A stretch of 38,477 nt of DNA from a virus, in IMG/VR virus record IMGVR_UViG_3300001815_000002, positions 1 through 38,477 of that record; one strand, given 5' to 3'. The translations under genes were made by a program, and so were the position numbers. The notes under the pieces are model-generated. The model made no database searches. It was not told the DNA's origin and worked only from the letters and a program-made list of their open reading frames with translations. This document shows, in pieces, positions 10,707-38,477 of the stretch (positions are counted from its first letter, which is position 1; each line of letters opens with the position of its first letter).

Positions 10707-10919
10707 GAGGACCCAGCCGAGGACCCCTTTCCCAGCACCGGAGGACCCAGAACGGAGGACCCAGAACGGAGGACCCAGCCGAGGACCCTGTGTAAGTTTC
10801 GCGAAGCTCGAAATATAACGCGCGGCGTGAGACTGGGGGACGACCAACGCCGGGAGGACCCGAAAAGCGCGGGGGCACCCCCACCCCCCAGGAGCCACCG
10901 AACGGGCCGAGGAGGACCC
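10707..10919 (+). repeat. Eight GAGGACCC iterons
   Basis: Exact GAGGACCC copies start at 10707, 10719, 10741, 10755, 10769, 10781, 10854 and 10912, all in the same orientation. The first six are 12-22 bases apart and most are embedded in a longer unit (CGGAGGACCCAG). Two further units share ACCAACGCCGGGA (near 10844 and 10922). Closely spaced same-direction repeats of this kind are typical of origin iterons, terminase binding sites or arrays of operator sites. Confidence 0.8.
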
Positions 10920-11103
10920 AACCAACGCCGGGAACACAAGGAGAGGGGAGGGCACGCGCGCGCAAGCCCCAGGGGACCACGGAACCCGGAACCCGCCCAG
11001 GGCGAACCCCGACGCGCCGCCCAACCCAAGAGACGAGGGCGGAGACGCCCGCGCTATCAGAGCAACGGGAGAGCGAAACGGAGGAACGGCGCGCCGAGAA
11101 CCG

Positions 11104-11129
11104 CCGCGCAAGCGCGGCCGCAAGCGGCC
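11104..11129. other. Two abutting perfect hairpins
   Basis: CCGCGC-AA-GCGCGG (11104-11117) is followed, with two shared bases, by GGCCGC-AA-GCGGCC (11116-11129). Both are 6-bp perfect GC stems around the same AA centre. Their overlap means only one can fold at a time, which suggests a structural switch or a protein-binding double dyad. There is no T-tract, so they are not terminators. Confidence 0.6.
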
Positions 11130-11234
11130 CTGGACGGAACCCGGAACCCGCGGCGGGAGGGGGCGGCGGCGCGAGCCACACAGAGCAGCGCCCCAAAACC
11201 CAAACCACCAAGCCCAAGAGGCAAGGAGCACAAA

Positions 11235-11603
11235 ATGACCGCAAAGCACGAAGCACGAAGCAAAGACGCAGCAGCCAAAGCCCAAGAGCACGCGAAACGG
11301 GCACAAGAGGCAGCAGACGCCAGCGCAGCAGCAGCGCAGCGCAACGACCACAAGGAAGCAGCGGCAGCAGCCAGGGAGGCACGAAAAGAAGCGAGGCAAG
11401 CAAGAGAACAAGCCGAACGCGCGATGAACGCAGCGTACGCACTCTGCGCCAGCGCACAAAGCGAGACAGGCACGGAGTACGAGGCAGCGGACGAGGCAAC
11501 CCGACACGCCTACAACCGGGGGGAGGAAGCAACGAGAAGAGCCGAAGACGCGGACCAGGCCGCACAAGAAGCCACAGAACACGCACAACGCAAGGCGAGG
11601 TAA
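11235..11603 (+). CDS. Ala/Glu/Arg-rich coiled-coil early protein, 122 aa
   Basis: First gene of the rightward arm. The start is ATG 11235, six bases after AAGGAG; a longer open frame exists upstream but is repeat-driven nonsense. The protein is almost entirely charged alpha-helix (EARSKDAAAKAQEHAKRAQE, AAAAREARKEARQAREQAER), a single long coiled coil with an Ala-rich face. No family was recognised. Its leader resembles that of the next gene (CAAGAG..AGGCAAGGAGCA..AAA), so the two are probably controlled alike. It is a possible host-takeover or DNA-binding protein, by position only. Confidence 0.65.
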   Translation: MTAKHEARSKDAAAKAQEHAKRAQEAADASAAAAQRNDHKEAAAAAREARKEARQAREQAERAMNAAYALCASAQSETGTEYEAADEATRHAYNRGEEATRRAEDADQAAQEATEHAQRKAR

Positions 11604-11612
11604 CCACCGAAC

Positions 11613-11630
11613 GGGGGCCGGAAGGCCCCC
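11613..11630 (+). terminator. Intercistronic hairpin with GGAA loop
   Basis: A 7-bp stem GGGGGCC/GGCCCCC around a GGAA tetraloop lies between two small early genes. It is followed by AAAACCC rather than a T-run, so it is more likely an mRNA-stabilising or processing hairpin than a true intrinsic terminator. Confidence 0.45.
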
Positions 11631-11664
11631 AAAACCCAAGAGCCGAAAGGCAAGGAGCAAAAAG

Positions 11665-11895
11665 ATGCGCTATCACAAGCACGAAGCACGCAACAACAAG
11701 CACCAAGAGGCACTGACCGCACTGAGCGAATGGGCCTCGGAATGCGACGGACTGTTCGAAGTTTACCAACGGATGCTGGAGGACATGCTGGAGCAAGACT
11801 GGATCGACGAAGAGCAGCACGAATGGCTACTGGAGAACGTCACACTGGAGCCGTTTAGAATGACCGCAGAGGAGGACGAACAATGGGCGGAGTAA
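11665..11895 (+). CDS. Small acidic early protein, 76 aa
   Basis: The start is ATG 11665 behind AAGGAG in a leader nearly identical to that of the preceding gene. The N-terminus is basic (RYHKHEARNNKHQE), and the rest is acidic and helical (ECDGLFEVYQRMLEDMLEQD, EEDEQWAE). No family was recognised. Its start codon overlaps one of the GCGCTATCA copies (11667). Small acidic early proteins of phages are often inhibitors of host enzymes or defence systems, but nothing in the sequence proves that here. Confidence 0.65.
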   Translation: MRYHKHEARNNKHQEALTALSEWASECDGLFEVYQRMLEDMLEQDWIDEEQHEWLLENVTLEPFRMTAEEDEQWAE

Positions 11896-12316: not shown

Positions 12317-12370
12317 TTTTTTATGGATCGGGGATGGTCCCCGGTCCGGGTCAAATCGGAGGATACGACC

Positions 12371-12805
12371 ATGAGCAAGCAAGCATTCAACACTGGCGAC
12401 CGTGTTTCTACCCCCAAGGGCGAGGGCGAAATCCTGGACTACAAGCGCGGCTGGTTTATCGTGGACCTCGGAGAGGAGGAAGGCGAATGCAAGTTTCGTG
12501 CCAAGGACCTCACCAAGGCGGGCAAAGTCAAGATGTCCGAACAGCTGAAGAAGTACCGCGTAGGTTACACCAAGAGCGTTGGGCCTGACGGTTCCCGGTC
12601 CATGAGCAACGGAGACGACCTCGCGCAGTACCTCGAAGGCAAATCCTGGGAGGAGGTCTGCAAACTGGCGGACGAGGTGCTGGAGGAGGTGCCTGGGTTC
12701 CATGCCGCCAAATACCAGAAACTGAATCTCGGGGCGCGGAGGATGAACGCCGGAAACCGGATCCGGGCGGCCATCAAGCGGGGTGATTGGGAGGTGCCCC
12801 AATAG
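12371..12805 (+). CDS. KOW/SH3-like early protein with shared C-terminal module, 144 aa
   Basis: The start is ATG 12371, after GGAGG. Residues 7-45 (GDRVSTPKGEGEILDYKRG, then a beta-rich FIVDLGEEEGECKF) look like a small SH3/KOW barrel of the nucleic-acid or ribosome/polymerase-binding kind. Residues 80-144 contain a module also present in the gene at 16484: an L-x-G-x-x-x-x-E-V-x-x-L-A-x-E helix, then the pattern AKYxxLNxGxxRMNxGNRIR. The function is unknown. The combination suggests binding to RNA polymerase, DNA or RNA. It is driven by the promoter at 12288-12316. Confidence 0.8.
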   Translation: MSKQAFNTGDRVSTPKGEGEILDYKRGWFIVDLGEEEGECKFRAKDLTKAGKVKMSEQLKKYRVGYTKSVGPDGSRSMSNGDDLAQYLEGKSWEEVCKLADEVLEEVPGFHAAKYQKLNLGARRMNAGNRIRAAIKRGDWEVPQ

Positions 12806-16399: not shown

Positions 16400-16428
16400 T
16401 TGACTGGCACCCGAGAGGGTGCTATACT
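16400..16428 (+). promoter_or_regulatory. sigma70 promoter before the replication block
   Basis: TTGACT (16400-16405), 17-base spacer and TATACT (16423-16428), extended TGC. It begins directly after the preceding stop codon and reads into the gene at 16484 and probably the helicase beyond. Confidence 0.88.
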
Positions 16429-16483
16429 GACCGTCTGGGCATATAGCCTAGACTTCAAACAACATCTCAGGAGATGGACAATC

Positions 16484-16921
16484 ATGACGGAAGAAGCAAA
16501 GACGACGATCCGCCCGGATATTTCTGGTTACCAGAAGGCGAAAGCCGCGTCCGGCGCAGTGTCGCACAACAACGGCGATTCGGTCGCAACGGCGCTGCAG
16601 GGTGCAAACCTGGATGAGGTCTACAGCCTCGCAGCCGAGATCACCGAAACCCCCGCCAAGGACCTGCAGGCCAAGTACGGCCACCTGAATGCCGGTCAAC
16701 AACGCATGAACCTGGGCAACCGGATTCGTGGTGTTGTCAACAAGATGAACAAGGAGAAGGAAGGCTCCGGTGACAAGTTCATCAAGTCCGCTTCCTCTGG
16801 CATTCGCGATGCCGTCGCCCAGCGTGAAAAGGCTGCGGCGGCTGCGAAGAAGGAGAAAGAAGCGGCGGCAGCTGCAAAGGCCAAGGAAAAGCAGGCCAAG
16901 TCCAAGGCAAAAGCCGCCTAA
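16484..16921 (+). CDS. Histone-like tailed protein sharing a module with the 12371 gene, 145 aa
   Basis: ATG 16484 follows a CAGGAG site. Residues 30-85 carry the same module as the gene at 12371: L-Q-G-A-N-L-D-E-V-Y-S-L-A-A-E and then AKYxxLNxGxxRMNxGNRIR. The last 40 residues are nearly all Lys/Ala/Glu (AAAAAKKEKEAAAAAKAKE), like an H1-type DNA-binding tail. A role in DNA compaction or replication, or as a DNA-bound regulator, is plausible. Function unknown. It is followed by hairpins and a short T-run (16974-17004) before the helicase. Confidence 0.8.
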   Translation: MTEEAKTTIRPDISGYQKAKAASGAVSHNNGDSVATALQGANLDEVYSLAAEITETPAKDLQAKYGHLNAGQQRMNLGNRIRGVVNKMNKEKEGSGDKFIKSASSGIRDAVAQREKAAAAAKKEKEAAAAAKAKEKQAKSKAKAA

Positions 16922-17020: not shown

Positions 17021-18511
17021 ATGGGATTTCCGTACAAAGCTCCACCGATGGAGCATCAGCGCCGTGCTCTCAAGAAGGCGTGGAAGAAAAAAGACTTTGC
17101 CCTCTTTTGGGAAATGGGCACCGGCAAAACCTATACCGCTATCAACCTTGCGGCGGGCAGGTACAAGCAAGGCAAAATCGACTCCCTTCTGATCATATGC
17201 CCCACCCCGATCAAACTCGTCTGGGAATCAGAACTTGAAAAATGGAGCCCGGTTGATTATAAGGTCCAGGTCCTAGTCGCAGGCCGAGAGCCACAGAAGC
17301 AAGCCAAGGCGTTCGCCAAGGAGAAACTCGACGCGCTCAAAGTCTTGGTGGTGGGAATTGAAGCCCTGTCTCAAGGAAAAGCGTCAGAGGTCGCCAAGGA
17401 ATTCGCGGCACTAAATACGACCATGGTGGTCGCGGACGAAAGTTCCAGGCTCAAGAACCACAAGGCAAATCGAACAAAGCGCGCTATCACGATTGCCGAT
17501 CACTGCGTCTACCGGCTTATCCTAACCGGGACACCCATCACCCAAGGCGTGGAAGACCTGTTCGGCCAATTTCAGTTCCTAAACCCCGGAATCCTTGGCA
17601 CCAACAGCTTTGTAATATTCAGGCGACGGTACTGTATCACCAGAAAAATCAAAATTGGTGAGAAGGTTATCAATGGTAAACTCAGGCAGATCACGGTGCC
17701 CAAAATTACAGGGTACGTGAGGCTTGACGACCTATTCGACCGGGTGCGGCCATATTCAGATATTGTGAAAAAAGAGGACGTGCTTGACCTGCCGCCCAAG
17801 GTGTACCAGAGGGTGGTGGTTGAGCCGACCGACGAACAACTGCACCTGATCGACGAACTTAAACAATCGTTTGAGGTAGAACACGGCGGCGAAATGCTCA
17901 TGGCTGAGACTATCCTTGAACGCCTGACCAGATTCCAGCAGATCATCGGGGGCCACTTCCCGTTCAACCTAGAGAACGGTGGCTACGATATCAAGCCCCT
18001 TGAGGGAAAGAACCCCAAACTAGACGCTCTCTTGGAAATTCTCGACGAGATAGGTGACGACACCAAGGTGATAATATGGACCCGATTCAAACCGGAATCC
18101 CGGCTAATCAAGAGCTCGATTTCGACACAGTTCGGAGAGGAAGCGATAGCAAGCTTTACGGGGGAAGACGACGAGGACTCCAGAAAGGACGCCGTGAAGC
18201 GGTTCATGCATGGGAACGCGAGGTTCATGATTTCGAGTCCCCAATTGGGAGGGATGGGACAAACCTGGACTGCTGCGACATTGGTGATCTATTACTCGAA
18301 TAGCTTCTCGTTTGAGGACCGGAAGCAATCCGAGGATCGTGCCCACCGGAAAGGGCAAACCGAGTCGGTGACCTACATCGACATTGAAGCAAATCACCAC
18401 TACGACCAGATCATCTTGAAGGCGATCGGGGCCAAGCAGGACGTGGCATCCATGGTCGAGAGAAACCTCGCGCCGGATATGGCAATAAGTCTTGACGAGG
18501 CCCTGCCTTAG
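17021..18511 (+). CDS. SNF2-type DEAD-like helicase/translocase
   Basis: A 496-residue superfamily 2 ATPase. Motif I is MGTGKT (32-37), motif II is DESS (139-142, in VVADESSRLKN), motif III is LTGTP (168-172), and a late motif VI is of the type SEDRAHRKGQ, the SNF2 signature. These enzymes translocate on double-stranded DNA and remodel protein-DNA complexes. Phage versions are linked to replication restart, recombination or clearing of bound proteins. The start is ATG 17021 after AGAGGAAG. A GCGCTATCA copy lies within the R-A-I-T codons (17481), and the promoter for the next unit overlaps its 3' end. Confidence 0.9.
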   Translation: MGFPYKAPPMEHQRRALKKAWKKKDFALFWEMGTGKTYTAINLAAGRYKQGKIDSLLIICPTPIKLVWESELEKWSPVDYKVQVLVAGREPQKQAKAFAKEKLDALKVLVVGIEALSQGKASEVAKEFAALNTTMVVADESSRLKNHKANRTKRAITIADHCVYRLILTGTPITQGVEDLFGQFQFLNPGILGTNSFVIFRRRYCITRKIKIGEKVINGKLRQITVPKITGYVRLDDLFDRVRPYSDIVKKEDVLDLPPKVYQRVVVEPTDEQLHLIDELKQSFEVEHGGEMLMAETILERLTRFQQIIGGHFPFNLENGGYDIKPLEGKNPKLDALLEILDEIGDDTKVIIWTRFKPESRLIKSSISTQFGEEAIASFTGEDDEDSRKDAVKRFMHGNARFMISSPQLGGMGQTWTAATLVIYYSNSFSFEDRKQSEDRAHRKGQTESVTYIDIEANHHYDQIILKAIGAKQDVASMVERNLAPDMAISLDEALP

Positions 18512-18550: not shown

Positions 18551-18991
18551 GTGAATACTGATCTTAAAGATTATGAAGACACCCTTGGGTCTATGAACTA
18601 CGGGGATCTGGCCCAAGAGTTCAAATACCTGAGAGAGTCTATGGACGAAGCTAAGAAGCTTCACGCTGATCTGTGGAAAAGGTATGAAGTTCTAACGACC
18701 CAAGTTCTCCCGGATCGCATGGCAGAAGATGGGTTCAAGAACATCACTTTAGAGGGAGTCGGCAGATTCCAGGCCAGTGAACAAGCTCGCTGTTCCACCA
18801 GAGAGGGACAGAAGGAAGCACTGTTCCAGTGGCTCCAAGACAACGGATTTGAGGACCTTATCACGGAGGTCGTCAATCCTTCAACCCTGAAGGCCTTTGT
18901 TAAGGAATGCAGGGATGGAGGTCGCCCGGTACCCCCGGACGAAATCGTGAACTACGAGCCATACACCCGTGTGACGCTCGTGAAATCGTAA
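18551..18991 (+). CDS. Unknown replication-region protein, 146 aa
   Basis: The start is GTG 18551 after GAGGAGGTAGAC. The first half is a long charged helix/coiled coil (AQEFKYLRESMDEAKKLHAD), then a GVGRFQASEQARCS strand region, then helices and PPDEIVNYEPYTRVTLVKS. The 'long coil then G-x-G-x-F' layout reminds me of Gp157-type phage accessory proteins, but the match is too weak to claim. Its position before the SSB-like gene suggests a replication or recombination accessory. Confidence 0.75.
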   Translation: MNTDLKDYEDTLGSMNYGDLAQEFKYLRESMDEAKKLHADLWKRYEVLTTQVLPDRMAEDGFKNITLEGVGRFQASEQARCSTREGQKEALFQWLQDNGFEDLITEVVNPSTLKAFVKECRDGGRPVPPDEIVNYEPYTRVTLVKS

Positions 18992-19014: not shown

Positions 19015-19779
19015 ATGGCAACGAAGAAAGCAGTAGCGACGGTAGGTAACGACCTGCCGATGGAACGCCCGTCTTGGATGGGTGACAGCAACCGGGGTAA
19101 CGAGGGTGTGTCTGCGGATGATATGACCATTCCTCGAATCTCCATCATTCAGGACCTCTCGCCGCAGCACAAGAAGTCCAAGCCGGAATACATCGAAGGC
19201 GCTGAGCCGAAGATGATGTTCAACACGGCGACGGGCGAACTGTACGGCAACGACGTCATGGTTGTCCCGGTCCTGTTCCGCAAGGAATGGGTGATCTGGA
19301 AGAGCCTCGACGTTGGTGGCGGATTCATGGGAGCTTACCACTCCGCTGATGAAGCCAACGAGGCCCTGTCGGCACTGGAGGACGCAGAAGATTGTGAGGT
19401 CGTGGATACGGCCCAGCACTTCGTCCTGATCTTTGATCCGGCCTCCCCGGTTGACAACCCGCACGTGGAGCAGGCGGTTATCTCCATGTCCAAGTCCCAG
19501 ATGAAGGTGTCCCGGAAGTGGAACACCATGATCACCGCCAATGGCGGCGACCGTTGGGAGCGGGTGTACAAGCTCGAAGTTGTCGACGACAAGAACAAGC
19601 AGGGGCAGGAGTACTACAACTTCAAAGTCTCCCAGCTTGGTTTTGTCACCGAAGCTCTGTTCAAGACCGCTGAGAAGATGTACGATGCGGTCCGCACCGG
19701 GGCGATGGACGTCAAGCGTGATCCCGAGGGCACTGCACCCGCAGAACCTCAGGAAGACGACGACAACGACGAGTTCTAG
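19015..19779 (+). CDS. Probable single-strand DNA-binding protein (gp2.5-like role)
   Basis: A 254-residue soluble protein with a beta-rich core (EPKMMFNTATGELYGNDVMV, WERVYKLEVVDDKNKQGQEY) and a strongly acidic C-terminal tail that ends in Phe (EPQEDDDNDEF). The size and the acidic tail with a terminal aromatic residue match T7 gp2.5, where the tail contacts the polymerase and helicase. It precedes the polymerase gene set. ATG 19015 has AAGGAAC upstream. The function is inferred from tail, size and neighbours; no OB-fold motif can be proven by eye. Confidence 0.7.
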   Translation: MATKKAVATVGNDLPMERPSWMGDSNRGNEGVSADDMTIPRISIIQDLSPQHKKSKPEYIEGAEPKMMFNTATGELYGNDVMVVPVLFRKEWVIWKSLDVGGGFMGAYHSADEANEALSALEDAEDCEVVDTAQHFVLIFDPASPVDNPHVEQAVISMSKSQMKVSRKWNTMITANGGDRWERVYKLEVVDDKNKQGQEYYNFKVSQLGFVTEALFKTAEKMYDAVRTGAMDVKRDPEGTAPAEPQEDDDNDEF

Positions 19780-20306: not shown

Positions 20307-20567
20307 ATGAGCACTTTCATTGAAATTACGAAAGAAGTTGCCGGGTACGGCCCTATGGAAAATGGCTCGACGGGCTACGAAAAAAGGGTCTTCTCGAAAA
20401 CTAGAGAAGTGGTAGAATACCTATCCCTATCTCAGATTCGTTCCATAATTCCTAATAATGGAGGGTATGCCAACGTATACACTATGGATAAGGAAATCAT
20501 TCACACCAAGCACTCGGTGGACGAAATGATTGAGAAAATCAGGGAGGCGGGAGCAACAGTGATATGA
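20307..20567 (+). CDS. Unknown replication-region protein, 86 aa
   Basis: ATG 20307, with GGAG at a normal distance. The protein starts MSTFIEITKEVAGYGPMENG and has a helical C-terminus (SVDEMIEKIREAGATVI). It is a compact alpha/beta fold candidate. It overlaps the next gene by 4 bases (ATGA), so the two are coupled. No function is known to me. Confidence 0.7.
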   Translation: MSTFIEITKEVAGYGPMENGSTGYEKRVFSKTREVVEYLSLSQIRSIIPNNGGYANVYTMDKEIIHTKHSVDEMIEKIREAGATVI

Positions 20568-20830
20568 GCGAGTACGACAACACCAATTCCGGTGCCATGT
20601 TCAAGAACGACCGGAAAAAGACCGAGCGCCACCCGGATCGTCAAGGGCAGGCAGACATCATGTGCCCCGAGTGCGGGGCCGTCACGCCCTTTTGGGTATC
20701 AGGCTGGTTGAAGAAGGCCAAGCGCACCGGGCAACAGTTCCTCTCTTTGGCATTCACTCCCAAGGATAGCCCGGCCCTGCAGAACGATCAGCAGGATGAT
20801 AACTTCGATGACGGGGATATCCCGTTTTGA
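20564..20830 (+). CDS. Small Zn-type protein with SSB-like DDGDIPF tail, 88 aa
   Basis: Starts at ATG 20564 in an ATGA overlap. The N-terminus YDNTNSGAMFKNDRKKTERH matches a widespread short phage/bacterial protein pattern (Y-D-N-T-N-x-G-x-x-F-K-N-D). A CPEC motif (Cys34, Cys37) may bind zinc. The C-terminus is NFDDGDIPF, a near copy of the bacterial SSB tail (DDDIPF) that recruits replication proteins. It lies directly before the polymerase, whose TTG start overlaps its stop. It probably acts as a small replication-fork adaptor (inference). Confidence 0.75.
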   Translation: MSEYDNTNSGAMFKNDRKKTERHPDRQGQADIMCPECGAVTPFWVSGWLKKAKRTGQQFLSLAFTPKDSPALQNDQQDDNFDDGDIPF

Positions 20831-22665
20831 TCGACCTGACGCGCTATCATGCAGTGGCTATCGATACCGAAACCACCGGGTTGCGCTGGCCCAAGGACGA
20901 AATGTTTGGGTTCAGCGTGACGGTGCCGGGATGGTCCGAGTATTACGATATTCGCGAGCGCCCCGACGCTCTCCTTTGGTTGCAGGATCAGGCCCGCAAA
21001 TTCAAAGGGACGTGGATTCTGTTCAACGCCACCTTCGACATCAAGATGCTGCACTCCAAGGGGGTGTACATCCCAATCAACCAAGTAGAGGACACATCAA
21101 TCAATGCTGCTCTTATTGACGAGCATTTGCCTTCTCATTCTCTTGACTTCCTCGGACGAAAATATCTCGGGGCCGAGAAATTAAGCGAGATTTACGACGA
21201 TCTTGCGGCCCTGTTTGGGGGTCTGCCCACCAAGAACGTCCAGATGCCGAACCTGCACCGGGCACCACCGGAGGTTGTTGCTCCGTACGCGATTCAGGAT
21301 ACCGAACTCACCTACGCCCTTTGGGAATGGCAGCAAAAGGAAATCGGTCGCCAAGGGATTGAGCAGATCGTGGATTTCGAGCACCGGGTCCTGCCCTATG
21401 TTCTTAAACAGGAAATGGCGGGCATCCGGGTCGACATCCAGCAGGCACAGAAAGCCCGCGAAGGGCTTCACGTGATCATTGACCGGGAATACAACATCCT
21501 CCGCAAGGAAGTTGGCGGGGATATGAACGTGAACAGCACCCCGCAGATCAAGGCATATTATGACCCGCACCAGAATGCCGATGGAGATTGGGTCCTCAGG
21601 AACGGGCTGATCTGCGGCACCACAGAGAAGGGAAATCCGAGCATCAACAACGACGTCCTGCAGGCGATGCGTGAGAAGGACGTTGTGGCAGACCAGATCA
21701 TCAAGCTCCGGTCCCTGATACGAACAGCGGACACTTTCCTTGGAGGACATATCCTTGGACACGAAATCGATGGAAGGGTCTATCCTACGATCAACCAAGT
21801 TGCCCGAGATACCGGGGGTACCAAGACAGGTCGTTTTTCATATACTGACCCAGCCATGCAGCAAATCCCTAACCGAAACAAGGAAGTGGCAGCGCTGGTC
21901 AAACCCTGCTTTCTGCCGGACCCCGGCCACGTTTGGGTCGACGCTGATCTCAACTCCTTTGAAGTCCGGACATTTGCTCACCTTGTGGCAGCATATAACC
22001 AAACGATTTCAGACGCGTACCGGCAGGACCCTTACACTGATTTCCATAGGTGGGTAGCCGGACTCATGGGGGTCCCAAGGGACCCTCAGCCCAACGGCGG
22101 ACCCAACGCCAAGCAGATAAATCTGTCAATGATTTTCAACTCTGGGAACGGCTCAATTGCCGAGCAGCTTGGGTATCCCACCTTCCCGGATCAGTTCCTT
22201 GGGGATGACGGCAAGATAGTCAAGTACCGCAAGGCTAGCCCAGAGGCTATGAAGGTCATCAACGATTACCATCGCAGGGTACAGGGGGTGAAGACCCTGG
22301 CCGAGCGGTGTAAAAAGAAGGCCCTCAAGCGGGGATATATCAAAACGAAGTACGGACGTAGGCTCCGGTTCCCAAACCACTTGAAGAGCAAAGCCTACAA
22401 GGCATCAGGAATCCTGATCCAGGCGACGGCGGCAGACATTAACAAAGAGAATTGGATGATTGTCGACGACGCCATTGGTGATCGGGGCCGGATGCTTCTA
22501 AACACCCACGACAGCTACAGCATGTCCATAGAAAAGGACGCGTGGAAGGGGGCGTGGAAGGACGTAAAGGCCGCAATTGAAAAGCGGGACTGGATGCGTG
22601 TTCCACTGATTCTTGACTTTAATGGGATGGGCACCAATTGGTGGGAGGCCCTGCAAGGTGAATAA
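20827..22665 (+). CDS. dpoZ: Family A DNA polymerase, probable 2-aminoadenine-type (DpoZ)
   Basis: A 612-residue polymerase with 3'-5' exonuclease. Exo I is D13-x-E15, Exo II ends in D71 (NATFD), and Exo III is Y154-x3-D158. Polymerase motif A is ADLNSFEVR (373-381, D374), motif B is K429-Q-I-N-L-S-M-I-F437, and motif C is H561-D562-S563. Compared with E. coli Pol I, motif C Glu is Ser, O-helix F762 is Leu433, Y766 is Phe437, and the Arg four before K429 is Gly. There is no 5' nuclease domain. The start is TTG 20827, overlapping the previous stop. The nearby PurZ/DatZ/MazZ cassette supports use of dZTP; this is inference from context. Confidence 0.88.
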   Translation: MIDLTRYHAVAIDTETTGLRWPKDEMFGFSVTVPGWSEYYDIRERPDALLWLQDQARKFKGTWILFNATFDIKMLHSKGVYIPINQVEDTSINAALIDEHLPSHSLDFLGRKYLGAEKLSEIYDDLAALFGGLPTKNVQMPNLHRAPPEVVAPYAIQDTELTYALWEWQQKEIGRQGIEQIVDFEHRVLPYVLKQEMAGIRVDIQQAQKAREGLHVIIDREYNILRKEVGGDMNVNSTPQIKAYYDPHQNADGDWVLRNGLICGTTEKGNPSINNDVLQAMREKDVVADQIIKLRSLIRTADTFLGGHILGHEIDGRVYPTINQVARDTGGTKTGRFSYTDPAMQQIPNRNKEVAALVKPCFLPDPGHVWVDADLNSFEVRTFAHLVAAYNQTISDAYRQDPYTDFHRWVAGLMGVPRDPQPNGGPNAKQINLSMIFNSGNGSIAEQLGYPTFPDQFLGDDGKIVKYRKASPEAMKVINDYHRRVQGVKTLAERCKKKALKRGYIKTKYGRRLRFPNHLKSKAYKASGILIQATAADINKENWMIVDDAIGDRGRMLLNTHDSYSMSIEKDAWKGAWKDVKAAIEKRDWMRVPLILDFNGMGTNWWEALQGE

Positions 22666-24993
22666 ATGGCAGCGATCGACTTATACCGTATCAGCGAAAT
22701 CGATGCGATTGAGGACTGGGACGAGAAGATATTCGCGGCAGCAACCATGTATGCCGAGTATGGTTTCTATGTCGTACCAATCAGGCGCGGCGGGAAGCTT
22801 CTCCCGAGTGACCGACACGGAGTAAACTACTACCACGCAACCAAGAATCCCAAGAGCATCAAGAAGTGGTTCGGTCCCGGAGGTAAATTCGAGGGCTGGA
22901 ACATCGGGATCGCAGCCGGACGGGAAGATGGTTGCTTTATAGTTGATATCGACAACAAGGGCGGCAAGAACGGTAGCGAGGAATTTGCGAAGATTGCGCC
23001 AGCCGGGTACGAATACATCGGCCCCGTTCAACGCACCCCCAGTGGTGGCTTCCATCTATTCTACACATGGATGGACAGCTGCATCAACAGCACCAGCAAG
23101 ATCGCCAATGGAGTAGACACCCGAGGCGGGGAATCTGATATGCCCCGTGGACACGTGGTTGCCTGGCCCTCCATGGTTGGTGATGAACAATACGTATGGA
23201 TCGAAGGTGGTGAAGTCCCGGACCTACCGGACTTCATCCACCGGTACTTTATATCGGACGTGCGTGAAGCTTCCAAGGCCAAAGGTCGTGGAAATGAGCA
23301 TGTAGGAAAGGAAGATAAGGAAGAAAAGCTCAGTGTCGGTCAAATCCGCAAGGTTTTAGAGTGCGTCAACCCGGAAAAAGACCACGACGACTGGTTCCGG
23401 TGTATGGCCGCGATTCACTCTCAGCACCCGAACGACGAAGGCCTGGCTTTGGTGGACGAGTGGAGCAGCCGGGATAAACGGACCGGGCCGGATGGCAAAC
23501 CGATGTACGACCCACGGCTTATCCGCGCCAAATGGAAAAGCTATGACGGGAATAAGGGTGTGCGAATTGCTACCCTCCTGTACTACGCCAAGCAGGATAC
23601 CCCGGATTTCGATCCCAAGACTCTGAAGTTTGAGCCTCCTAACCCGGATAAGCTCGACCAGATCGTGGAGCAGCTGAATAAACACTTTGCCGTGATCCCG
23701 CTGGGGTCGGATGTATTCGTATTGGAGGAAATGGCCGTCCCACCCGAGCTTTCCAGGATTCAGGCCCCATTCCGCATCCTCAAAAAGAATGGTTTCAGAA
23801 GCCTATTGGAAAATCAAACTGAGATTGCGGTGACTGCCGATGGAAGACCCATTAAGAAAACCTATGCTGATATATTCTTGGCCCATGAGAATAGGCGAAC
23901 CTATCCCAGCGGAATGGGACTCTTCCCCAACAAACCTAAGCGCTACATGGGCTATTATAATATGTGGCAGGGCTTCACCACTTCGCCCGATCCCGGAGAT
24001 TGGAGTCTTTTTCGAAGTCACATCCAAGACATAATCTGCTCTGGGGACGAAGACCTGTTTGATTGGGTACTGGACTGGATGGCTGACCTGTACCAAGACC
24101 CGGCCAATCCCAAAGGGTGCGCCCTTGTGATGCACGGCATCGAGGGTTGCGGTAAGGGGACATTTGCTCAATATTTAGGCCAGCCATTTGGGACTCATTT
24201 CAAGCACCTGTTGGACGAAGAGCACTTGATCGGGAGGTTCAATGGACACCTTGCTGATGCAATATTCGTATTTGCGGACGAAATTACTTACGGCGGCAAT
24301 AAGAAGACAGCTGGGAAGCTCAAAGGGATGGTTACCGAGAAGTATCTCGTCTCCGAGCGCAAGGGAGTCGATGCAGTCCAGTTTCACAACTGCGCCCACT
24401 TGGTTGTATCCTCAAACGAAGATTGGTTTATCCCAGCTGGTCCCGACTCAAGACGCTGGTTGGTTCTTGAGGTCGCACCCGATAGAGCCAACGACAAGGA
24501 ATACTTTACCCAGATCAACGACCAAATGAGCAACGGTGGGGTTGAGGCAATGATGCACGACCTTATGGAGCGTGAAGTCACCAATGACCTTCGTAAGGCC
24601 CCGGTGACAAAAGCGCTGCAATATCAAAGGGGCAGGTATGTTGCCGGGGACCCGGTACTATCCTGGATTTCAGGTCAACTTATGATGGGAGGGATTCTTA
24701 TACCGGATATTGATGATCAAGGGGGGTCGAAAGGGTGGCCCGAAATGATTTCAACCTCGGATGCTTATCAACACTGTCGCCAATGGTGCCTTGAAAACAA
24801 AATGCGAACCCCGGCAGATGTTGTGTTTGGTAAGTGCTTGAGAGAGCTAGGATTCGATTCTACCCGGCCCAAGAGGGCTGGGAAGAGAATATACGCGTAC
24901 AAAGTTCCGCCCAAAGCGGAGCTTTTGGAAAAGTTGGCCTCCAAGGGGGTCCACCTTGAAATTGATCTAGAGGACGAAGAACATGAAGATTGA
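22666..24993 (+). CDS. Primase-polymerase with SF3-type helicase
   Basis: A 775-residue multi-domain replication protein starting one base after the polymerase stop. The N-terminal AEP primase-polymerase has D94-x-D96 (FIVDID) and H130 (PSGGFHLFY). A PriCT-2-like linker spans about 225-310. The D5/NrS-1-like SF3 helicase has Walker A GIEGCGKGT (491-499), Walker B VFADEI (535-540), sensor N584 (SSNEDW) and Arg596/597. It should unwind the fork and make primers. Z-genome phages such as S-2L also pair PurZ with a PrimPol. The stop overlaps the purZ start (11 bases). Confidence 0.9.
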   Translation: MAAIDLYRISEIDAIEDWDEKIFAAATMYAEYGFYVVPIRRGGKLLPSDRHGVNYYHATKNPKSIKKWFGPGGKFEGWNIGIAAGREDGCFIVDIDNKGGKNGSEEFAKIAPAGYEYIGPVQRTPSGGFHLFYTWMDSCINSTSKIANGVDTRGGESDMPRGHVVAWPSMVGDEQYVWIEGGEVPDLPDFIHRYFISDVREASKAKGRGNEHVGKEDKEEKLSVGQIRKVLECVNPEKDHDDWFRCMAAIHSQHPNDEGLALVDEWSSRDKRTGPDGKPMYDPRLIRAKWKSYDGNKGVRIATLLYYAKQDTPDFDPKTLKFEPPNPDKLDQIVEQLNKHFAVIPLGSDVFVLEEMAVPPELSRIQAPFRILKKNGFRSLLENQTEIAVTADGRPIKKTYADIFLAHENRRTYPSGMGLFPNKPKRYMGYYNMWQGFTTSPDPGDWSLFRSHIQDIICSGDEDLFDWVLDWMADLYQDPANPKGCALVMHGIEGCGKGTFAQYLGQPFGTHFKHLLDEEHLIGRFNGHLADAIFVFADEITYGGNKKTAGKLKGMVTEKYLVSERKGVDAVQFHNCAHLVVSSNEDWFIPAGPDSRRWLVLEVAPDRANDKEYFTQINDQMSNGGVEAMMHDLMEREVTNDLRKAPVTKALQYQRGRYVAGDPVLSWISGQLMMGGILIPDIDDQGGSKGWPEMISTSDAYQHCRQWCLENKMRTPADVVFGKCLRELGFDSTRPKRAGKRIYAYKVPPKAELLEKLASKGVHLEIDLEDEEHED

Positions 24994-26011
24994 TCTTATC
25001 TTTGATATGCAGTACGGCAGCACCGGGAAGGGACTCCTCGCCGGGTACCTTGGTGAGGTAAACCGACCTGATACGGTCGTGAACTGTAATATGCCGAATG
25101 CGGGGCACACATATATCGATTCCGAAGGGCAGAAGATGATCTTCAAATGCCTGCCGAATTCGATCGTGTCCCCCAACCTCCGCGCGGTTCTCTTGGGGCC
25201 AGGGTCGGTCGTCAATCTTGATCGGTTGAATGACGAGATTCGGGAGGCAAAATCATTTGGTTATTTGCAGCACACCAAAGTATGGATTCACCCCAACGCC
25301 ACGATCCTTAAGGACGAACATCGGGATTTCGAAGCCTCGACCCTTAACTGTATTGCCTCTACTATGCAGGGGTCAATGGCGGCGACCTTCGAGAAGATGG
25401 CCCGAAATCAGGAGAACTCGCCCATCGCCAGAGACAACGACCAATTGGTGGATTGGAAAACGAACGGATGCGCCAGGGTGTGCACCCATGAGGAGTGGAT
25501 GATTGCTGTTGCGAGTGCCAAGGTGGTCGTGGCTGAGGGTTCCCAAGGGTATTCTCTTGGTCTAAATGGGCGGTTCTGGCCTTACTGTACCAGCCGGGAC
25601 TGCGACCCGCTGCGCCTGATGGCCGATATGGGTCTTCCTCGTGTACCGGCGACCATATGGGGCACTCTCCGCACCTACCCGATCCGGGTTGGAAACACTC
25701 CGGGCGGTTACAGCGGCGACATCTATCCCGACCAGAACGAAATCGATTGGTCAGACATTGGTCAGGCCCCCGAGTTCACTACCGTGACCGGGCGGCAGCG
25801 ACGAGTGTTCACGTTCTCCCGCCATCAGCTTGAGGATGCGATGTTCATGACTCGACCTGACAAGCTCTTCCTCAACTTCTGCAATTATATGGACCCAACT
25901 TCTCTCGCTGGTCTGGTAGAGAACATCGAGGAAGTAGCCAATTACTTCAACTCTGATCTCACTCTCATGGGGTATGGACCTACATTCCACGACGTGAAGG
26001 AGTTCAAATGA
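24983..26011 (+). CDS. purZ: PurZ, succino-2-amino-2'-deoxyadenylate synthase
   Basis: A 342-residue PurA-family enzyme. Its P-loop is G12-S-T-G-K-G17, so Ser13 replaces the catalytic Asp13 of bacterial PurA; this change is the recognised PurZ signature. Other conserved parts are NAGHT (39-43), ASTMQGS, WGTLRTYPIRVG and the Asp-binding loop TTVTGRQRR. PurZ condenses dGMP with aspartate using ATP or dATP; host PurB then gives dZMP, and host kinases give dZTP. It is followed by datZ with an ATGA overlap. PurA proper has about 430 residues, and the shorter length here fits phage PurZ. Confidence 0.95.
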   Translation: MKIDLIFDMQYGSTGKGLLAGYLGEVNRPDTVVNCNMPNAGHTYIDSEGQKMIFKCLPNSIVSPNLRAVLLGPGSVVNLDRLNDEIREAKSFGYLQHTKVWIHPNATILKDEHRDFEASTLNCIASTMQGSMAATFEKMARNQENSPIARDNDQLVDWKTNGCARVCTHEEWMIAVASAKVVVAEGSQGYSLGLNGRFWPYCTSRDCDPLRLMADMGLPRVPATIWGTLRTYPIRVGNTPGGYSGDIYPDQNEIDWSDIGQAPEFTTVTGRQRRVFTFSRHQLEDAMFMTRPDKLFLNFCNYMDPTSLAGLVENIEEVANYFNSDLTLMGYGPTFHDVKEFK

Positions 26012-26481
26012 AAATCCAGGACCTGATGCGGATTTCCAGCGTCAAGCGATGGCACATCGTGGCTACCGCCAAGGAGCAAACCTTGGCGGATCACACCTGT
26101 AGGGTGGCCATCCTCGCTTATGAAATAGCAATGAGGCTGGGTTATATACATGAATGGGGTGAAGAGGGGGATATCCTACTTACCGCTTTAACGCACGACA
26201 CCGATGAAATTATGAACGGAGACACCCCAGGTAACACTAAAAATAGCATAGAGGATGAAGTATTACCGAAGACCACAACCGAAATGGTGGTAAAGCTGGC
26301 TGACGTCTTGGAGACGTACTTGTTCATTCAACAGTATCACGTAGACAGGCACGGCAAGCAGGTAGCCCATTGGTGTGCCAAAAGGTGGACCAATCTGATT
26401 TCCCAACTGCCTGATCGTGACAATAAGAAGATGATCGAACTCGAAAACGAGTTGTTCGTCGGGGAGTACACAGACGCCTAG
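26008..26481 (+). CDS. datZ: DatZ, HD-domain dATP triphosphohydrolase
   Basis: A 157-residue HD-domain phosphohydrolase. The likely metal ligands are H29 (ADHTCRVA), H63-D64 (LTHDTDE) and D99 (KLADVLE). R14/W15-H16 near the N-terminus fits the YfbR-like fold. In Z-genome phages, DatZ removes dATP so that the polymerase takes dZTP. Its coupling to purZ (4-base overlap) supports this role over a general nucleotide phosphatase. The length is close to the 175-residue S-2L enzyme. Confidence 0.92.
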   Translation: MKIQDLMRISSVKRWHIVATAKEQTLADHTCRVAILAYEIAMRLGYIHEWGEEGDILLTALTHDTDEIMNGDTPGNTKNSIEDEVLPKTTTEMVVKLADVLETYLFIQQYHVDRHGKQVAHWCAKRWTNLISQLPDRDNKKMIELENELFVGEYTDA

Positions 26482-26494
26482 TAAGCCAGAACAG

Positions 26495-26869
26495 TTGTTC
26501 TGGAGGAACGAACTCCGGTACAACTTGAAGAGAATGGGCCATTGCTGCCGAGTGGAGAGTGGCCCCATCACACCTGGAATCCCAGATGTAAACATCCAAA
26601 TGAGGAACGGGCCGGAGGTATGGATTGAACTCAAGGTAGTGAACCCAAAAGGCAAACTCCACGTTCGTTCCGGACAAAGAGCTTGGCATACTCGGAGACT
26701 CAAGGAAGGAGGAAAGTGTTTTATCCTCACCAAGTGGGAGTACACCTACTTCTTGAATCGTGGAATCACAGACGGCGCCGATCCTAATGACTGGATGGCG
26801 GATTCCGGGATAATATGGACCGGCAGCATCAATTTTGATCAGCTGGAGGAGATACTACGAAATGCGTAA
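26495..26869 (+). CDS. PD-(D/E)XK-type nuclease (VRR-NUC-like), 124 aa
   Basis: Contains G-P-I-T-P-G-I-P-D-V-N and W-I-E-L-K-V-V, the PD and E-x-K motifs of PD-(D/E)XK nucleases, in the short VRR-NUC/Holliday-resolvase-like layout, followed by a GQRAWHTRRLKEGGKCFI block typical of that group. It probably resolves branched DNA, as T7 endonuclease I does. The best start codon is TTG 26495, but the frame is open further up (KPEQLFWRNELR) and no ribosome site is clear. It sits between datZ and mazZ and overlaps mazZ by 8 bases. Confidence 0.82.
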   Translation: MFWRNELRYNLKRMGHCCRVESGPITPGIPDVNIQMRNGPEVWIELKVVNPKGKLHVRSGQRAWHTRRLKEGGKCFILTKWEYTYFLNRGITDGADPNDWMADSGIIWTGSINFDQLEEILRNA

Positions 26870-27191
26870 GAATCAAGGAAAACCTAAGCTTCATAAGGCT
26901 ATGATGATGCCGGAAGCTCTCAAGGCCATGGTCGACGTTATCGAGTTCGGGGAGGAGAAATACACCCCCGCCAGAGAGCGAGGGTGGTTGAATTATAACG
27001 TGGACGACACCATGGACTCATTGCTGAGGCATGTGACGGCCATGATCAACGGGGAATCGCATGACCCGGAATCTGGGCTTCACCATGCTGCACACGCACA
27101 GTTCAACGCCTGCGTGTTGGTGGAGCTTCTCAGCCGGATCGATTCCCCCTCTGGAGATTCTTCCTCTGACTCATTACTCGCAGATTTTTAG
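26862..27191 (+). CDS. mazZ: MazZ-like dGTP/dATP pyrophosphohydrolase
   Basis: A 109-residue protein with the pattern of the dATP/dGTP diphosphohydrolase N-terminal family (DUF5664 type): KPKLH-x6-P-x-A-L, VIEFGEEKY (26-34), RGWLN, SLLRHVTAMINGE (53-65) and DPESGLHHAAHA (68-79). In Z-genome phages, MazZ turns dGTP into dGMP, the PurZ substrate. I placed the start at ATG 26862 (GGAGGA upstream) rather than a TTG at 26835. The Ser/Asp-rich C-terminal tail overlaps the HNH gene on the other strand by 62 bases. Confidence 0.88.
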   Translation: MRKNQGKPKLHKAMMMPEALKAMVDVIEFGEEKYTPARERGWLNYNVDDTMDSLLRHVTAMINGESHDPESGLHHAAHAQFNACVLVELLSRIDSPSGDSSSDSLLADF

Positions 27192-27411
27192 GTGAGTTAC
27201 CACCACCTTTACTCATGGGGCGCTTATGATCGACGTGCTTGCCGTCCCCCCGGCGCACCCGGCCCTGCTTCATGAGCTTTGCACGGGCGGAGTTCCTTTT
27301 GGCGCGGTTCTTACGCTGCTGGGGCTTCGCTTGGTACGTCCGCCCGTGCCTTTTTATTTGTCCAGGGGTTCTGTGAGCCGTAGGGCTTCGCTTTTCTCCA
27401 CCTTCCGCCAT
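27130..27411 (-). CDS. Small HNH-type nuclease
   Basis: A 93-residue, very basic protein. The C-terminal half holds VDHKRPMSKGGGNSPKNLRV followed by a second Asn near RKN, which is the 'DH...GG..N..NL...N' core of HNH nucleases, without zinc-binding cysteines. This short type is frequent at the ends of phage virion operons. It may act in packaging (nicking next to terminase) or as a stand-alone homing-type enzyme. It is the last gene of the leftward arm, with AAGGAG before its ATG. Its 3' end overlaps mazZ antisense. Confidence 0.8.
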   Translation of the reverse strand: MAEGGEKRSPTAHRTPGQIKRHGRTYQAKPQQRKNRAKRNSARAKLMKQGRVRRGDGKHVDHKRPMSKGGGNSPKNLRVMSQRKNLQRGNRSG

Positions 27412-38074: not shown

Positions 38075-38477
38075 TTGATGCTCCCCTGTTTAAGCTTGCC
38101 GTATACCCCAAGAACCTCATTGAAGAACGGCAGATGTTCCTCGATGGTTATCACTTGGTACGGGTCCCATCCGAATTTGGGTTCTACTATATCATTGAAC
38201 AGGTCAAGCGGCTGACTGACGTCCATGATGGTCATCGGGTCCCTGTCAGAAGGACGATAACCATTGATGATCGGGCGGGTTGAGCCAAGAGTCCTGACTC
38301 CATAATCAGCGAATCTTGCCTGAGCACCGGGGTCCATCTTTTCAGGGGGGAGAGTCGTGAGTACGGACCTATGGCCAAGACCAACCGTGCAAGAAGTCAC
38401 AGTAACCGTAATATCACCAGAAGACTCGAAACCAGTACCAATAGTGAGCGTGATCGACCCATTCACAACTTTAAAGA
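38071..38477 (-). CDS. Tail tube/nozzle protein, T7 gp12-like (3' part, enters from right edge)
   Basis: C-terminal part of the same gene that starts at 2069. Bases 38366-38477 repeat the left edge, so unique sequence here is 38071-38365. The frame matches: a codon starting at 101 on the left corresponds to 38466 on the right. The protein ends with KLKQGSIK, and its TGA overlaps the ATG of the next gene (ATGA, 38071-38074), so translation is probably coupled to the fibre-adaptor gene. An ORF caller that ignores circularity reports this as a separate 131-residue protein, which it is not. Confidence 0.85.
   Translation of the reverse strand, partial: FKVVNGSITLTIGTGFESSGDITVTVTSCTVGLGHRSVLTTLPPEKMDPGAQARFADYGVRTLGSTRPIINGYRPSDRDPMTIMDVSQPLDLFNDIVEPKFGWDPYQVITIEEHLPFFNEVLGVYGKLKQGSIK
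38366..38477. repeat. 112-base direct terminal repeat, right copy
   Basis: Exact copy of bases 1-112. Joining base 38365 to base 1 restores a continuous leftward open frame from 2069 through the junction to 38071. The unique genome length is therefore about 38,365 bases. Confidence 0.95.

Follow-up and report, generated by a model that had tools for sequence, protein, structure and literature searches.

The IMG/VR virus record IMGVR_UViG_3300001815_000002 (38,477 nucleotides, all of it analysed and called the window below) belongs to an uncultured phage and carries a replication module resembling those of phages that have 2-aminoadenine (Z) in place of adenine in their DNA. The module includes the genes of PurZ, DatZ, the DNA polymerase DpoZ and a VRR-NUC-like nuclease, and the gene 26862-27191, whose product belongs to the DUF5664 family. 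A first-pass annotation of this DNA had described a complete Z-genome cassette of PurZ, DatZ and MazZ lying after a family A polymerase and a primase-polymerase/helicase. The open reading frames of all these genes and of the nuclease are located as it had described (Table 1), and its PurZ and DatZ are correct. The third enzyme is a different one: no mazZ gene was detected in the window.

Table 1. Genes of the replication module of the window and the profile matches that identify them
Feature	Coordinates	Strand	Details
Stand-alone DUF5664 protein, predicted dNTP pyrophosphohydrolase	26862..27191	+	109 codons; PF18909
PurZ, predicted N6-succino-2-amino-2'-deoxyadenylate synthase	24983..26011	+	NF038379
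DatZ, predicted HD-domain dATP triphosphohydrolase	26008..26481	+	phrog_7076 (E 2.3e-23)
DpoZ, 2-aminoadenine-incorporating (predicted) family A DNA polymerase with 3'-5' exonuclease	20827..22665	+	612 aa, TTG start; NF038380
VRR-NUC-like PD-(D/E)xK nuclease	26495..26869	+	124 aa, TTG start; phrog_2165 (E 3e-16)
Primase-polymerase/helicase (Prim-Pol, PriCT_2, DUF5906 P4-type ATPase)	22666..24993	+	PF09250, PF08707, PF19263
Single-strand DNA-binding protein (SSB)	20564..20830	+	phrog_7364 (E 1.9e-15); phiVC8 p31 SSB at the equivalent place
Pam3 gp34-like protein	19015..19779	+	PF23977 (232 bits); order as phiVC8 p32
DUF7307 (Pam3 gp33-like) protein	18551..18991	+	PF23984 (112.6 bits); order as phiVC8 p33
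SNF2-type DNA helicase	17021..18511	+	PF00176 (100.6 bits); order as phiVC8 p34

PurZ, DatZ and DpoZ

PurZ of the window scores 329.9 bits against NF038379 (cut-off 300). Its best match in the PDB is PurZ of phage phiVC8 (6fm1, 350 bits); the best PurA reaches 65 bits. The residue S13, which belongs to the YGSTGKG motif, occupies the position of the catalytic Asp13 of PurA. Serine was found there in 16 of 16 aligned PurZ sequences, and this substitution is a rule for all phage PurZ (PMC12884076). Fourteen of the 15 residues of the dGMP pocket described for cyanophage S-2L are identical in the window, the exception being G130, which corresponds to A125. The aspartate loop is TTVT at 266-269.

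The best PDB match of DatZ is its S-2L counterpart (6zpa). The lead over YfbR in bits is small, but the residues agree. R14, W15, I17, Q24, H29, H63 and D64 of the window correspond to R19, W20, I22, Q29, H34, H66 and D67 of S-2L, and E67, G71, D72, K78, K96 and D99 correspond to E70, G74, D75, K81, K116 and D119. All checked metal and phosphate ligands and the equivalents of the base-selective W20 and I22 are thereby identical to those of S-2L, in which I22 excludes purines bearing a 2-amino group (PMC8065100). The base-contacting P79 of S-2L aligns with N76, at a position that is variable among relatives.

The family A polymerase of the first-pass annotation can be named more precisely, by a name that the annotation did not use. 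The product of 20827-22665 is a DpoZ of the phiVC8 type and is predicted to prefer dZTP. It scores 786.8 bits against NCBIfam NF038380 (aminoadenine-incorporating DNA polymerase DpoZ; cut-off 500), and its best PDB match is phiVC8 DpoZ (7pbk, 650 bits, compared with 98 bits for the Klenow fragment). The exonuclease residues D13, E15 and D71 are present (D26, E28 and D85 in phiVC8). So are L433 and G528, which are equivalent to L455 and G548 of phiVC8, and insertion 2; these three features distinguish phiVC8-like DpoZ (PMC8599892). The identity of DpoZ is the strongest single evidence for a Z-genome.

Since PurZ, DatZ and DpoZ all have the published signature residues, a genome with Z in place of A is strongly favoured as a prediction from sequence, as the first-pass annotation had proposed. 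We consider it very improbable that the genes are present and the DNA is nevertheless a mixture of A and Z or has reverted to A. Such an outcome would agree with the origin of one pool enzyme from a different family and with the lack of DatZ in certain related PurZ loci. But PurZ, DatZ and DpoZ are intact frames with full catalytic sets, and the three occur together in about 79 of the 92 loci of the PurZ tree described below.

The DUF5664 gene at the end of the module

Published work describes mazZ as always lying between purZ and datZ and defines the Z-cluster as purZ-mazZ-datZ (PMC8342488). No gene separates purZ and datZ in the window because their frames overlap by 4 bases (26008-26011).

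The gene 26862-27191, annotated as mazZ at the first pass, encodes a protein that matches PF18909 (DUF5664) with 74.1 bits at a cut-off of 27. This is its sole Pfam match; PF04447 (DUF550), the family of MazZ-1, is absent. The DUF5664 family motif K-G-KY-D/S-RH-GE-D-ES-H is conserved. The MazZ-1 profile had no match in this gene or in the whole genome, and the MazZ-2 profile (phiVC8 p26 type) had none in the whole genome; both profiles found their targets in control contigs (G010 and G011, and G012 and G013, respectively). Thus the profile search that had been proposed as a check of the three families recovers PurZ and DatZ and fails to recover MazZ. The cassette is not "complete" in the published sense because its third enzyme, a DUF5664 protein, is not MazZ.

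Could the product be a true MazZ that has diverged past recognition? Its AlphaFold model (predicted local distance difference test score 82.7) is all-helical and weakly resembles S-2L MazZ (7ody, Z 4.4) and MazG-like proteins. The best PDB structure is 2p06 (Z 7.9); these scores are under the significance level for helical bundles. Good viral structural matches of the model are DUF5664 proteins. Foldseek and VIA-align found no decisive fold match for DUF5664 in the PDB, and a sequence search found no solved DUF5664 structure. The "MazZ" of Acinetobacter phage SH-Ab 15497 also has a DUF5664 domain ahead of its DUF550 domain. Against these likenesses, hhalign gave the DUF5664 family of the window a probability of 0.1% versus MazZ-1 and 0.2% versus MazZ-2, the PF18909 score is well above its cut-off with PF04447 absent, and some relatives encode MazZ-1 or MazZ-2 plus DUF5664 as separate genes. 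A diverged MazZ is therefore hardly credible.

A survey from 2026 describes DUF5664 of PurZ phages mainly as a domain joined to DUF550. It examined the stand-alone form from Wayne, a PurZ0 phage, in which the enzyme converts dATP, dGTP and dUTP to monophosphates with a kcat tenfold higher on dATP than on dGTP (PMC12884076). The SH-Ab 15497 enzyme matches PF18909 in its N-terminal part and PF04447 in its C-terminal part; the Wayne protein matches PF18909, and S-2L MazZ matches PF04447. We also considered p22 of phiVC8, which is weakly DUF6378-like and follows the nuclease gene in the same way, as a homologue of DUF5664. The profile comparison was unsupportive.

mazZ, DUF5664 and the nuclease among relatives

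A search of IMG/VR with a PurZ alignment gave 412 candidates, from which 80 loci were kept; six loci from genomes and further annotated phages were added. The gene order of each locus was obtained by iterated profile searches over its open reading frames. In the PurZ tree the window falls into a phiVC8-like clade of 58 rows, 54 loci of which were scored for mazZ and DUF5664.

All nine mazZ-less loci of this clade carry a stand-alone DUF5664 gene after the nuclease gene, compared with 9 of 45 loci that have MazZ-1 or MazZ-2 (Fisher p 9e-6 for DUF5664 versus mazZ absence, with related rows and kinship ignored). In the PurZ tree these nine loci fall into three groups: the window with L018, L019 and L020 (support 100/99), L036 with L038, L040 and L041 (91/84), and L088 alone, which adjoins a MazZ-2 locus (99/97). 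Parsimony gives about three losses of mazZ, each in a DUF5664 carrier. Whole-contig profile searches for MazZ-1 and MazZ-2 found neither in nine of nine related mazZ-less contigs searched. Of these nine contigs only that of L041 is closed by a terminal overlap, 117 bases long; the remaining ones may therefore be incomplete. Each of the 10 reference PurZ-group phages fetched has MazZ-1 or MazZ-2.

From homology and co-occurrence, DUF5664 most likely replaces MazZ. Several observations weigh against this replacement. Only 2-3 pairs, each pointing the expected way, are available to the independent-pairs test, so that a kinship-corrected test cannot reach significance. DUF5664 is common outside the Z group: 362 phage records match the protein of the window, and the best matches (Alteromonas phage PT11-V22, Autographiviridae such as glasur, and Edwardsiella phage KF-1) are absent from the listed part of the 201 PurZ-match records. 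In a tree of 39 short DUF5664 domains the protein of the window forms a long-stemmed clade of its own with L018-L020 only (100/99), and the deeper branches are unresolved. Finally, by analogy with the Wayne enzyme and its faster turnover of dATP, the role of the protein may be removal of dATP and not supply of dGMP.

These observations, in particular the frequency of DUF5664 in PurZ-less phages, the substrate preference of the Wayne enzyme and the low power of the pairs test, would fit an alternative in which the virus has a Z-genome, host enzymes provide dGMP, MazZ is dispensable for the host in question, and DUF5664 is an unrelated accessory that removes dATP or dUTP. We regard this as unlikely, because every mazZ-less locus of the clade has DUF5664, always in one position behind the nuclease gene, versus 20% of the mazZ-bearing ones, and the apparently separate losses of mazZ all fall on its carriers. 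The reading that we prefer, and judge probable, is a phiVC8-like podovirus module that puts Z for every A, in which a stand-alone DUF5664 protein replaces MazZ in converting dGTP to dGMP.

Descent of this DUF5664 from the fused form of Acinetobacter and Klebsiella PurZ phages was also considered; the tree places the window in a separate clade. The DUF5664 proteins of L031 and L088 fall near those of non-PurZ phages with weak to moderate support. Because of these placements, several separate uptakes of DUF5664 into the same slot of the cassette are likely, though not proven, as judged from the tree.

The nuclease was described at the first pass as structure-specific, as working on Z-DNA and as inserted into the cassette; the first two properties are unsupported by the present data. 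All 55 phiVC8-like loci with enough sequence contain a VRR-NUC-like gene. This makes it a fixed member and not an insertion; it is more constant than MazZ or DatZ. It lies directly 3' of DatZ in 65 of the 82 PurZ loci that have DatZ. The residues E21, G28, P30, D31, E45 and K47 are invariant in an alignment of the window with 19 relatives. The protein has no Pfam VRR-NUC match; it matches phrog_2165 and, weakly by profile, the phage nuclease 4qbo in the PDB (E 0.011). The phage records that it matches are ZP6, one unclassified phage, Pseudomonas M6-type phages and Bordetella phages FP1, CN2 and MW2. M6 is also a modified-base phage, which may be a coincidence. The nuclease is named VRR-NUC in the ZP6 paper (PMC8515928); a single search for VRR-NUC together with PurZ gave no further paper.

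DatZ may also be dispensable in some PurZ phages. Contigs L049, L051 and L059 (40.8, 29.4 and 32.7 kb) belong to phages with PurZ, DpoZ and MazZ-1, and no DatZ was found in them when the whole contigs were searched with a DatZ profile able to detect the gene in their close relatives. The L049 contig has a terminal overlap of 141 bases. In L053, a viral contig of 119,931 bases with a PurZ of the phiVC8-like clade, DatZ, MazZ, PrimPol, the nuclease and DpoZ were undetected, the DpoZ and DatZ profiles having been run over the whole contig.

Genome layout and predicted role of the module

Judging by sequence comparison, the window is the genome of a podovirus and shares synteny with Vibrio phage phiVC8 and Alteromonas phage ZP6. 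The 112 bases at its start (1-112) recur exactly at its end (38366-38477), and the tail-protein gene stays in frame over the join; the 38,477-base record thus closes into a circular molecule of 38,365 bases, although IMG/VR lists it as linear. The layout is of the phiVC8 type. One half, encoded on the minus strand, is structural, its phrog matches being head, connector, tail and internal virion proteins; the other, on the plus strand, holds early and replication genes.

The order of SNF2 helicase, DUF7307, gp34-like protein, SSB, DpoZ, primase, PurZ, DatZ and VRR-NUC-like nuclease is shared with phiVC8 (Enhodamvirus), to which PurZ is 51% and DpoZ about 49% identical; the primase-polymerase/helicase matches phiVC8 p28 and ZP6 gp24 in position. 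However, phiVC8 has MazZ-2 (p26) between PurZ and DatZ, p30 between SSB p31 and DpoZ, and the DUF6378-like p22 after the nuclease in the place of DUF5664. ZP6 (Mareflavirus) has the same core in a similar order and a PurZ 49% identical to that of the window, but it carries a MazG-like MazZ-2 (gp22) between PurZ and DatZ. Cyanophage S-2L (purZ, mazZ, datZ) has the active-site residues of PurZ and DatZ in common with the window; it differs in having MazZ-1, no DpoZ and PrimPol as its sole polymerase (PMC8065100). SH-Ab 15497 shares the DUF5664 domain, DatZ, DpoZ and PurZ, whereas its DUF5664 is fused to DUF550 (MazZ-1) between PurZ and DatZ and that of the window stands alone downstream. Arthrobacter phage Wayne likewise has DUF5664 without DUF550. 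It has PurZ0, a Wayne-type DpoZ and DutZ/DmtZ and no DatZ, unlike the window, which belongs to the PurZ/phiVC8-DpoZ group with DatZ.

Neither tRNA genes nor, in an Rfam search, any RNA family was found in the window. Between two divergent operons, at 10835-11700, the plus strand is nearly devoid of T over about 870 bases, with an exact T-free run of 220 bases (10835-11054) and an AT skew of 0.95 over 500 bases. AT-skew maxima are 0.35-0.49 in phiVC8, ZP6 and BUCT555, and DNA resembling this stretch was not found in phages. If the genome contains Z, the minus strand of the stretch would have zero Z. Two early genes, 12323-12805 and 16400-16921, both match the family phrog_8941 and are possibly paralogues. 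An HNH-like frame on the minus strand (27130-27411, 93 aa; phrog_4590, E 7e-18) is convergent with the DUF5664 gene and overlaps its last 62 bases.

The activities that we infer for the module would be as follows. PurZ would condense dGMP with aspartate to N6-succino-2-amino-2'-deoxyadenylate (dSMP), which host enzymes would turn into dZTP; DatZ would convert dATP to dA and thus remove A from the pool; DpoZ would choose dZTP over dATP opposite T. These steps are assumed by analogy with what has been published for phiVC8, S-2L and SH-Ab 15497. The DUF5664 protein would supply dGMP for PurZ from dGTP and may also aid DatZ in removing dATP, because its Wayne homologue hydrolyses both dGTP and dATP. 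The nuclease, we guess, processes replication intermediates or host DNA. Resistance of the predicted Z-genome to restriction would follow from the literature on Z-DNA.

Z-genome phages of the phiVC8 kind are already known, and the mazZ-less variant with DUF5664 is modestly new. A broader proposition can be put forward tentatively: MazZ is not required for Z-genomes, the trimming of dGTP having passed to a repeatedly acquired DUF5664, and the nuclease, the one enzyme family other than PurZ and DpoZ that the phiVC8-like clade never lost, belongs functionally to the replication of Z-DNA. The related phages without detectable MazZ indicate that the MazZ part of the Z-cluster is exchangeable, and the near-constant VRR-NUC-like nuclease is an overlooked member of the module. 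PurZ, DatZ, DpoZ and DUF5664 make a candidate minimal set, which may be useful for engineering cells with Z-DNA.

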